Assembly (NCBI RefSeq): GCF_023008545.1
Contig: NZ_CP095397.1
Span: 2,903,199 to 2,967,198 of the forward strand
From: Natribaculum luteum
GTDB lineage: Archaea; Halobacteriota; Halobacteria; Halobacteriales; Natrialbaceae
DNA: 64,000 bases
Direction of reading: 5' to 3'
A program made the position numbers and the translations under genes. Within the stretch, counting starts at the first letter, position 1. Every line of letters starts with the position of its first letter. This document shows, piece by piece, positions 27,005-36,759 of this stretch. Below the pieces are notes generated by a model. The model was not told the DNA's origin, searched no databases, and saw only the letters and a program-made list of their open reading frames with translations.

Positions 27005-27341
27005 CCGCACCCCTCGTTTCCGACGTTTCTTTGGGCCATCACGTTCGCATCGTGACTCTCGCCCGTGACTCTCGCCCGTGACTTCAGGCCGGATGTCGGA
27101 CCCCGGATTTCCGTCGTTTGTCAGACCCACCCCACGTTTCCGACGTTTCTGCAGACTCCCGACACGCCGAGTTTCCGTCGTTTCTTCGCGAACCGCCCCG
27201 TATTTCCGGCGTTTTTCAACCCCACCCCACGTTTCCGCCGTTTCCGTAGAGTCGCGTCGATCGCACCGTATGTGGACGCGTACCCCACCCCATGTTTCCG
27301 ACGTTTCCGGCGTGTCACCCTGGGTTTCCGTCGTTCGAAAC
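27005..27341 (+). repeat. Array of eight ORB-like repeats downstream of orc1/cdc6
   Basis: Eight same-orientation copies of a roughly 25-base motif occur, with consensus CCCCACCCCACGTTTCCGAC followed by GTTTC. They begin near 27005, 27100, 27125, 27162, 27192, 27220, 27282 and 27316. The cores TTTCCGNCGTTT are well kept and the C-run varies. The motif resembles Orc1/Cdc6 origin recognition boxes (a G-run plus a half-palindromic core) and recurs upstream of the same orc gene. 26808-27004 shows no gene or repeat. Confidence 0.82.
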
Positions 27342-27398: not shown

Positions 27399-28631
27399 CT
27401 AGCGATCCGCCCAGTTTTGCATCCGACTGTCCTCGAGGATCGTCTCGCGAACGACTTCGTGATCCTCGATGAGGCGATTCTGGAGGTGGATTCCTCCCGC
27501 ACTCCCCTTGTTGATCTTCTCGATCTCGACGACGCCGAGGAAGGCCTGTTCTTTGAGAATGTCCCGGAATCGACGGACAGAGAGGGTGTCCATGTCGAGG
27601 TAGTTGCAGATGCGCTCGTACTCGTCGTAGACGCGACTCGTGAGAAACGCGTCCTCCTGGGAGGTGACCGTGAGTTCGGTCAACGCGAGCAACGCGGCTT
27701 TCGCCTGGGTCGGCGCGCCGTTGACCAGCTCGCGAAACCGGTCTTTCTCGGCGTGCTGTTGTGCCTGGCGGACGTGCTCCTCTCGAACCGTGTCGTCTCC
27801 GGACTCGTAGGCGACCTCGCCGGCGTGACGAAGGATGTCGATCGCCTTCCGTGCGTCACCGTGTTCCTGGGCGGCGAACGCCGCAGCGAGCGGGATGACG
27901 TCGTCCGAGAGTACGCCCTCCTGGAAGGCGTCGTCGCGGTTGTACATGATCTCGCGGAGCTGGTTGGCGTCGTACGGCTTGAAGAACAACTCCTTGTGCT
28001 GGAAACTGCTTTTGACCCGCTCGTTGAGGTCGTCGACGTACTGAATCTTGTTACTGATCGCGATGATTCCGATACTGCAGTCGATCTTGCCCGCTTCCTC
28101 CGCTCGAGACAGCTTCATCAGCACGCTCCCGTCGGTCATCAGATCGATCTCGTCCAGGATGATGATCACCGAATCGAACTGCGAATCGAGGGTCTGCCAG
28201 AGGAGTTTGTAGTACTTCGACGTGCTCAACCCCGTGTGCGGGACGGTGATTCCAGTGACCGACTCGTCGTTGAGTTTCGCGGCGAGCGAAGAGATTGCCT
28301 GGGTCTCCGTGTTGTCCTCCGCACAGTCGATGTACGCGGTTCCGATGTCGACGCTATCCTGGGCGGCGTTCTGTGCTCGCTGGCAGACGTGACGGGAGAC
28401 GAGCGACTTTCCGGTCCCGGTCTTCCCGTAGATCATCACGTTCTCGGGAGAGTAACCGTGAACGGCACCGTTCAGTCGCTTTGCCAGCTTCGAGATTTCT
28501 TCGTCGCGGCCGACGATCCGGTCGGCCTCTGGAACGTGACCGATCTTCAGGAGATCCTTGTTCGCGAAGATCCGGTGGCCGGACTGGAACAACGGATCGT
28601 CGACGGAGTCCAGGGAGGAATCAGACGTCAT
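27399..28631 (-). CDS. cdc6: Orc1/Cdc6 replication initiator
   Basis: A 410-aa AAA+ initiator that binds origin recognition boxes and loads MCM. Walker A is GKTGTGKS (69-76), Walker B LDEID (159-163), sensor 1 is IGIIAISNK, and the sensor 2 region is EHGDARKAIDIL. The C-terminal winged helix (about 310-400) contains VYDEYERICNYLDMDTLSVRRFRDILKE. The gene is flanked by ORB-like repeats on both sides, including its 3' side. A minus-strand TATA candidate, GGTTTTATCAG, lies at 28661-28671. Confidence 0.96.
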   Translation of the reverse strand: MTSDSSLDSVDDPLFQSGHRIFANKDLLKIGHVPEADRIVGRDEEISKLAKRLNGAVHGYSPENVMIYGKTGTGKSLVSRHVCQRAQNAAQDSVDIGTAYIDCAEDNTETQAISSLAAKLNDESVTGITVPHTGLSTSKYYKLLWQTLDSQFDSVIIILDEIDLMTDGSVLMKLSRAEEAGKIDCSIGIIAISNKIQYVDDLNERVKSSFQHKELFFKPYDANQLREIMYNRDDAFQEGVLSDDVIPLAAAFAAQEHGDARKAIDILRHAGEVAYESGDDTVREEHVRQAQQHAEKDRFRELVNGAPTQAKAALLALTELTVTSQEDAFLTSRVYDEYERICNYLDMDTLSVRRFRDILKEQAFLGVVEIEKINKGSAGGIHLQNRLIEDHEVVRETILEDSRMQNWADR

Positions 28632-28685: not shown

Positions 28686-28870
28686 ACCGTATTTCCGACG
28701 TTTTCGACCACGAAACCGGGCATATGAGAGAGTGAGAAGGGAGGTTCGGTATTCGACCATTCACGCCGCGTTTCCGACGTCCCGTGCGATGCCGTGACTG
28801 TGACGACAGTTGGTGGGATGAGTCCGTGAAGAGGGGGTGTGTCCCACCCACCCCAGGTTTCCGTCGTAAT
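28686..28870 (+). repeat. Left ORB cluster of oriC
   Basis: Three plus-orientation ORB-like elements: ATTTCCGACGTTTTC (within 28686-28705), CGTTTCCGACGTCCC (within 28764-28784) and the long element at 28830-28870 with GGGGGTGTGTCCCACCC and CAGGTTTCCGTCGT. Confidence 0.8.
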
Positions 28871-29003
28871 TGTGCGAGAGTGGGTGGGTGGAGACGAAAC
28901 GGACGTGGGCGTCCATGGGATTCCAGAAGGAGAGTCAGTCAGCGACAGAGATCGTCAGTCTACGTCGGATTCAACTCGAGTTCCATACTCGAGGTAAGAC
29001 TAC

Positions 29004-29145
29004 TGGAAACCTCTATTTCGGCTGAATAAACGAAATTACTATTCGTTTATTCCTTAAACGAAGTTAACCCAATGGACTATTCTCAAATCTAGTACTTATA
29101 GATCTAGGATAGAGTTTGTAGATCTATAGAGCGGTATAGTATACG
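29004..29145. other. AT-rich DNA-unwinding element of oriC
   Basis: This is among the most AT-rich stretches of the window. It contains an 11-bp inverted repeat, GAATAAACGAA (29024-29034) and TTCGTTTATTC (29042-29052) with a 7-nt loop. Two TAGATCTA palindromes lie 20 bp apart (29099-29106, 29119-29126), and there are two CTAG sites (29089-29092, 29104-29107). Confidence 0.8.
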
Positions 29146-29189
29146 GCGCCTGCATCGTGGAACGTCAAAACGGGGACGAGAACTGGCGT

Positions 29190-29664
29190 CGGAGGAACGA
29201 CGGAAACGACGGAAACGTGGGGGGTGTCGTGTTCGCTTACTGTGCGCTGCTCGAGGGATCGGTTTGTTTCACTCACTTTGTCTTCCCACTTCCATCCTCC
29301 TCTTTACGTCTGCTCGTATCATCTCGCCTCTTCTCGTCACTCGTCGCTCGTCGCTCGTATCGTCATATCTTCTTCCACTACCCACTCGATATCTCCTCCA
29401 CTCCTCCCTCCTCCACTCCTCCCTCCTCCACTCCTCCCTCCTCCACTCCTCCCTCCTCCACTCCTCCCTCCTCCACTCCTCCCTCCTCCACTCCTCCCTC
29501 CTCCACCTCTCCCTCCCTCCTCCCTCCTCCACTCCTCCCTCCTCCACTCCTCTCTCCTCCACTCCACCCCACCCCCACCTTCTTCACCAATACGTCGGAA
29601 ACCTGGGGTGGGTGGGACACACCCCCTTCGATACGTTGGAAACGACGGAACCGAAGGGGGTGTG
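29190..29664 (-). repeat. Right ORB cluster of oriC
   Basis: Minus-orientation ORB-like elements at 29190-29229 (CGACGGAAACGACGGAAACG plus GGGGGG), 29593-29632 (GTCGGAAACCTGGGGTGGGT) and 29634-29664 (TTGGAAACGACGGAACC plus GGGGGTGTG). They mirror the left cluster. Confidence 0.8.
29394..29565 (+). repeat. 15-bp polypyrimidine tandem repeat inside oriC
   Basis: Seven perfect copies of CTCCTCCCTCCTCCA fill 29401-29505, with a partial copy before and degenerate copies to about 29565. The top strand is almost pure C/T, with one A per unit. Open frames through it read as simple HSSLL or PPSST repeats and are not credible genes. Confidence 0.95.
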
Positions 29665-29776
29665 AAACGACTGGTGCCCCGGCAGTGCCGACGTCGTGAA
29701 ATGAACGCAACGCCTGGTAGAAACAGTGAGAAAGAGGGCAGGGCAACCGGTTGGGGACGTTTCGATCCTCGAGTCG

Positions 29777-36129: not shown

Positions 36130-36759
36130 ATGTCATGCCGACGACTCAGTCGACGAAAGTTCGTAGCTGCCGCTGGAACCACGAGTGTCGTCGCTCTCGC
36201 CGGATGTGCAGACGGCGGCGACGGGAACGGTGCCGAGGACGACGAACCAGAGGACAACGAGACGACGGACAACGAAACGGCCGACGGGGAGACGTACACT
36301 CTGACGGTGACGGTCGAGGACAGCGAGGGTGAACCGGTCGAGGGCGCCACCGTCATGCTCGAGGAAGCCGGCATGATGGAAGACGGTGGGGCCGACAACG
36401 AGACCGACGCCGGCAACGAAACCGACGCCGACAACGAGACCGACGTCGGCAACGAGACCGGCACTGACAACGAAACTGGGGCCGACAACGAGACCGACGC
36501 CGGCAACGAGACTGACACCGAAGACGGGATGGGCACCGAGATGGAGCAGGAGACCGACGGAGAGGGGATGGTCGAGTTCACCGAACTCGAGGACGGAGAG
36601 TACACCGTCACCGCCGAATCCGACGGGCAGCAGGCCGAAGAGGACGTCGAGATCGACGGTGCCGACGAGGAAGTGACGCTGACGCTGGGCGAAGACGGTG
36701 CTGGCAACGAAACCGGCGACAACGAGACGGACAACGAAACCGGCGACGACGGCGCGTAA
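36130..36759 (+). CDS. Tat-exported lipoprotein with N-glycosylation sequon array
   Basis: A 209-aa envelope protein. The Tat signal S7-R8-R9-K10-F11 is followed by a hydrophobic stretch and lipobox LAGC (C26), so it should be lipid-anchored outside the cell. A small beta-sandwich of the carboxypeptidase-regulatory/PEGA type (YTLTVTVEDSEGEPVEGATV...MVEFTELEDGEYTVTAES) is interrupted by seven NET units. There are twelve Asn-Glu-Thr sequons in total, two before, seven in and three after the array. The ATG at 36130 is preferred to a GTG at 36115. Function is unknown. Confidence 0.88.
   Translation: MSCRRLSRRKFVAAAGTTSVVALAGCADGGDGNGAEDDEPEDNETTDNETADGETYTLTVTVEDSEGEPVEGATVMLEEAGMMEDGGADNETDAGNETDADNETDVGNETGTDNETGADNETDAGNETDTEDGMGTEMEQETDGEGMVEFTELEDGEYTVTAESDGQQAEEDVEIDGADEEVTLTLGEDGAGNETGDNETDNETGDDGA
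36391..36516 (+). repeat. 18-bp tandem repeat, seven units, coding
   Basis: Exactly seven 18-base units (for example GCCGACAACGAGACCGAC) encode the six-residue unit A-D/G-N-E-T-D. Units differ mainly at the third codon position and the D/G codon. They lie in a loop of the lipoprotein's beta-sandwich. Confidence 0.9.

Follow-up and report, generated by a model that had tools for sequence, protein, structure and literature searches.

The analysed window, 64,000 nucleotides of contig NZ_CP095397.1 of Natribaculum luteum, carries an orc1/cdc6 initiator gene of the orc4 type (27399 to 28631, minus strand), detected as an open reading frame and 90.7% identical to the orc4 of pNRC200. Members of this initiator family are annotated as orc4 on haloarchaeal plasmids, where the type is usual; in both species of the genus the gene lies on the main chromosome contig, with synteny around it. 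The replicon is a chromosome contig of 3.66 Mb, syntenic with that of Natribaculum breve, and a plasmid replicon was ruled out on these grounds. Just downstream of the gene, a cluster of ORB-like repeats (27009 to 27335, no strand assigned) contains eight copies of repeat family D3. Nine ORB-like cores occur in 700 bp downstream of the initiator in N. luteum and N. breve, and four to seven at most loci of the orc4 family.

Upstream of the initiator gene, a left ORB with its G-string (28832 to 28874, plus strand) and an outer right ORB with its G-string (29585 to 29627, minus strand) are inverted partners, forming a 43-nt inverted repeat with 93% matches. The region between them includes an AT-rich centre (29000 to 29130, no strand assigned), which is the AT maximum of the intergenic region and a putative duplex unwinding element, and an inner right ORB (GGAAACGACGGAAACGTGGGGGG, about 29197 to 29227, minus strand; repeat family D5) at the place matching that of the family's inner ORB. 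Local inverted alignment further revealed an imperfect inverted repeat directly inside the outer pair, with the G-rich element GGGTGGGTGGAG (28882 to 28893, plus strand) as its left half and the C-rich element CTCCACCCCACCC (29562 to 29574, plus strand) as its right half; GGGTGGGTGGAG aligns with GGGTGGGGTGGAG on the other strand. In most origins of the orc4 family a G-rich counterpart was found inside the left ORB and a C-rich one inside the right ORB. The sequence features by which haloarchaeal origins next to orc/cdc6 genes are recognised are present, namely the orc1/cdc6 neighbour and the inverted G-string ORBs around an AT-rich element, and the locus is classified here as a putative haloarchaeal replication origin of the orc4 type.

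The right arm, from the inner to the outer right ORB (29231 to 29585, plus strand), is rich in pyrimidines, with 185 C, 111 T, 33 A and 26 G among its 355 bases. It includes a tandem array of the 15-bp unit CTCCTCCCTCCTCCA (29393 to 29569, plus strand), supported by TRF, exact units, composition and genome-wide uniqueness. The array adjoins the outer right ORB, and its placement between two ORBs of a putative origin, proposed in the initial annotation, holds for the inner and outer right ORBs. TRF describes it with period 15, 12.1 copies, 92% matches and a score of 305. The array of perfect and degenerate units noted initially is thus real, but the perfect copies number nine rather than seven; seven are head to tail at 29401 to 29505, and the others start at 29517 and 29532. 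Its 177 bases comprise 118 C, 47 T, 12 A and no G, so that the tract is free of G and dominated by C and T, as annotated, but not purely pyrimidine, because about one A occurs in each 15-bp unit. Dinucleotide shuffles (n=300 each) reached a top TRF score of 66 for the whole intergenic region and 115 for the right arm alone. Allowing at most one mismatch, the 15-bp unit has ten matches in the 4.6-Mb genome, every one within the array, and the array is the genome's sole match to a pyrimidine pattern of 44 bases, two of them free. Another tandem repeat of 18/54 bp (GCCGACAACGAGACCGAC) was detected by TRF at 36391 to 36521, perhaps within a coding region.

N. breve, the only companion of N. luteum in the GTDB genus, is syntenic around the origin, and its ORBs and AT-rich centre can be aligned to those of N. 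luteum. The alignment shows that the 15-bp array is absent from the N. breve origin, and the 44-base pyrimidine pattern with its two free positions has no match in the N. breve genome. The right arm of N. breve occupies the same place with nearly equal length and is also pyrimidine-rich, but shares no alignment with that of N. luteum beyond this pyrimidine character. Since the sister species lacks the repeat yet has the pyrimidine-rich arm, the array is young, while the composition and its place are older. The absence from N. breve bears out the earlier expectation that copy number changes easily, the array being unstable. Likewise, the 15-bp repeat did not appear in any of nine further origins of the orc4 family that were inspected. 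The initial annotation had taken absence of the tract from all close relatives with working origins, together with a loss without effect, as a sign against a role; the repeat is indeed missing from N. breve and those nine origins, but an arm rich in pyrimidines is a general feature.

The spacing of the right ORB pair is 63 to 71 bp at most orc4-family loci, 148, 153 and 207 bp in three other species, and 351 and 386 bp in the genus Natribaculum. Pyrimidine content is higher in the right arm than in the left in 35 of 37 members of the family. For a comparison anchored on ORBs, 38 sequences were taken and three without an ORB pair and one duplicate were dropped. Among the 34 unique origins, the stretch directly inside the left ORB is below 0.5 pyrimidine in 31, and of the three exceptions, L063 and L071 are loci where the pattern picked up only the more distant left ORB. 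The stretch directly inside the right ORB is above 0.5 pyrimidine in 30 of the 34, although its 60 bases take in part of the inner ORB's G-string where the spacing is short, which counteracts the signal.

Similar tracts at other loci prompted a survey of 80 further orc loci, with 40 regions of 20 kb as controls, excluding the N. luteum window and N. breve from the counts. A first survey by ORB pattern recognised only 5 of 82 loci, because other Orc families carry other ORBs, and was replaced by motif-free measures. Each locus was oriented like the N. luteum window, genes were called by a simple codon model, and pyrimidine content was measured in the two flanks, 50 to 400 bases from the AT maximum of the intergenic region upstream of orc. 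Measurement was possible at 66 of the 80 loci; seven had no 400-base intergenic region and seven more had an arm shorter than 100 bases. The right arm is richer in pyrimidine in 61 of the 66 orc-upstream regions, compared with 32 of the 80 measured control intergenic regions (145 regions were at least 400 bases long). The polarity appears in both layouts of the next gene (28/31 and 33/35) and in eight of the nine Orc protein clusters formed at 70% identity, and is stable under other anchor and arm sizes. A switch was seen for the C-G skew in 60 of the 66 regions and for the T-A skew in 48. With random anchors in the same regions the mean bias is 0.037 instead of 0.094 and 67% are positive, and because this weaker bias persists, the region as a whole accounts for some of the signal. 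A polarity in which purines prevail left of the AT-rich centre and pyrimidines to its right is widespread among haloarchaeal origins next to orc genes. In Haloarcula hispanica, the pyrimidine fraction upstream of the pHH400 initiator gene is 0.47 in the left arm and 0.57 in the right, and the origin there has been reported as active (PMC3528665).

Strong tracts and tandem arrays are also concentrated in these regions. In 40 of 80 fetched stretches the strongest purine or pyrimidine tract falls in the 1.5 kb upstream of orc, against 9 expected if positions were uniform. TRF gave 77 rows in 42 of 75 orc-upstream regions, compared with 22 rows in 16 of 145 control regions. The polarity is obeyed in eight of the nine other orc-upstream regions having off-centre arrays with at least 75% pyrimidine or purine. 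At L114, an unrelated origin, a polypurine tandem array of its own (33 bp x 3.7) occupies the mirrored left arm, from -355 to -215 relative to the AT maximum, as the polarity predicts. At L163, a tandem array of CTCCATCC lies about 6.2 kb from orc, possibly near another element.

A held-out set of 60 unused and more distant orc loci was run through the fixed pipeline; 47 had an intergenic region and 37 could be measured, of which 23 are positive when taken together. Split by an inverted repeat with a score of at least 15 flanking the AT maximum, as a stand-in for ORBs, 23 of 30 loci with the repeat and none of seven without it are positive, a split that was introduced along with the test and not fixed beforehand. 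The same split of the control regions gave 4 of 4 positive with the repeat and 28 of 76 without. A looser earlier test on same-genus loci had been positive in 5 of 18. In non-halophilic members of the phylum no polarity was seen (8 of 24 measured among 30 loci, taken without gene calling).

The best reading of these comparisons is that the tract represents the overgrown right half of an enhancer-type G-rich/C-rich element. We consider it somewhat more likely than not that it is a species-specific slippage expansion in the right arm of an orc4-type origin, the arm itself belonging to an enhancer class and, less firmly, taking part in a priming step. The array would then probably be a dispensable and unstable expansion, and the arm around it is likely functional. 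In function, the arm may be of one class with the G-rich inverted repeat acting as an enhancer at oriC1 in H. hispanica, and selection would preserve the composition of the strands and not the exact sequence or the number of copies.

A neutral spacer, in which a low-complexity stretch between ORBs grew by slippage with no role and its pyrimidine bias is a by-product of mutation, is the most probable rival to this reading, though itself unlikely. The confinement of the array to one species agrees with it, as do the variable ORB spacing in the orc4 family (63 to 386 bp) and the general abundance of tandem arrays upstream of orc genes. It does not predict a polarity of fixed sign across unrelated origins. 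Nor does the switch of the C-G skew in 60 of 66 regions fit deamination of cytosines on exposed strands, which would lower the C content. Less probable still is a structural element, in which G-quadruplexes of the G-rich complement, or H-DNA, would help to open or mark the origin in the high-potassium cytoplasm. The purine strand is predicted to be G4-prone by G4Hunter, with a mean of 1.46 against a cut-off of 1.2, and over the whole window the 150-nt score is most extreme at 29429. G4 structures have been described in Haloferax volcanii cells (PMC12873603), and the enhancer mutations made in H. hispanica take away G runs while keeping purines (PMC3936714). On the other hand, the G runs of the array are just 2 to 3 long, in most origins the polarity amounts to a mild skew and not to a G4 motif, and a triplex would be interrupted by an A about every 15 bases. 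The triplex formation, helicase loading and unwinding initially ascribed to the tract are unsupported.

Two further proposals were rejected. Repeat number could fix the distance between the inner and outer right ORBs, as in the spacing adjustment suggested by the initial annotation, and the long distances in Natribaculum compared with most relatives fit such a tuner. However, N. breve, which has no 15-bp repeat, retains almost the same spacing (733 between the left and outer right ORBs, compared with 742 where the array is present), and relatives with short spacing carry the same ORBs, which leaves the tuner very improbable. A Ser/Pro/Thr-rich peptide or a small RNA encoded by the repeat deserves practically no credence. 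Open frames do cross the array, for example at 29157 to 29699, but a stop-free 15-bp repeat is open in several frames by construction, and the sequence is not retained in N. breve.

Under the preferred reading, an overgrown half of an enhancer-type element, the tract would act either by directing priming to one strand or through a structure that the G-rich strand adopts. In standard fork geometry, the strand running 5' to 3' outward from the centre is the lagging-strand template, and in each arm this outward strand is the pyrimidine-rich one. Prim-Pol primases favour a purine start on pyrimidine templates (PMC10345425), and strand-specific priming would be an economical reading of these two observations. 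Orc/Cdc6 might open the AT-rich centre, after which MCM might unwind outward. The pyrimidine strand could then be the preferred template of the primase, starting with purines, so that the first primers would be laid there and might turn into the leading strand of the opposite fork, the G-rich complement of the arm possibly serving as leading-strand template.

Archaeal origins are usually described in terms of ORBs and an AT-rich element. A composition switch whose polarity is the same in several Orc families of haloarchaea, one short version of which is a shown enhancer, suggests a further readable layer of the origin. It is conceivable, though we rather doubt it, that the polarity ranks with these two as a third general element of origins in haloarchaea, marking the sites of the first primers and paralleling trypanosome origins, with the array as an extreme and fast-evolving case. 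If the polarity does set the sites of leading-strand priming, it would bear on a poorly understood stage of initiation in archaea, and also on a possible parallel with eukaryotic origins.

The closest known system is oriC1 of H. hispanica, where GGGGAGGGGG and CCCCCTCCCC are located directly inside the left and right ORBs (PMC3936714). Mutation of this repeat gave smaller colonies, most strongly with both halves changed, and the authors termed it an enhancer (PMC3936714). The mutations replaced G/C by A/T, keeping purines and pyrimidines in place and removing the G runs, and the origin was still weaker (PMC3936714); therefore purine/pyrimidine character does not fully account for the effect. 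Both systems share a G-rich left and a C-rich right half, inverted and directly inside two inverted ORBs. They differ in that the H. hispanica enhancer is a perfect 10-bp repeat, whereas the N. luteum repeat is imperfect, 12/13 nt long and part of an orc4-type origin, its right half being extended towards the centre by the 177-bp array and the wider pyrimidine arm. The exact GGGGAGGGGG/CCCCCTCCCC repeat is not present at the N. luteum origin. With this different, imperfect sequence and an orc4-type initiator, the N. luteum element may work like the oriC1 enhancer without being a member of its class. An enhancer was thus already known for oriC1, and our comparison suggests that the polarity of such an element is wider than oriC1.

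The neighbourhood of the array, rather than the tract itself, resembles oriC2 of H. hispanica, where the oriC2D region, an ORB cluster immediately following the initiator gene, is comparable to 27009 to 27335 and restrains its origin (PMC3936714). Haloarchaeal origins next to orc/cdc6 genes have in common with this locus the initiator gene, the inverted ORBs with G-strings and the AT-rich centre (PMC3528665). The passages considered here cover ORBs, G-strings and the AT-rich region and make no mention of a purine/pyrimidine polarity (PMC3528665), and among the titles of open-licence papers covered none describes it for haloarchaeal origins; the polarity across haloarchaeal origins is the new content of this study. 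A like polarity is reported for origins of Trypanosoma brucei, where A and G are enriched upstream of the initiation centre and T and C on its downstream side (PMC13179062). These are eukaryotic origins mapped by nascent strands and feature mainly poly(dA)/poly(dT) (PMC13179062), and their likeness to the haloarchaeal polarity may reflect convergence.
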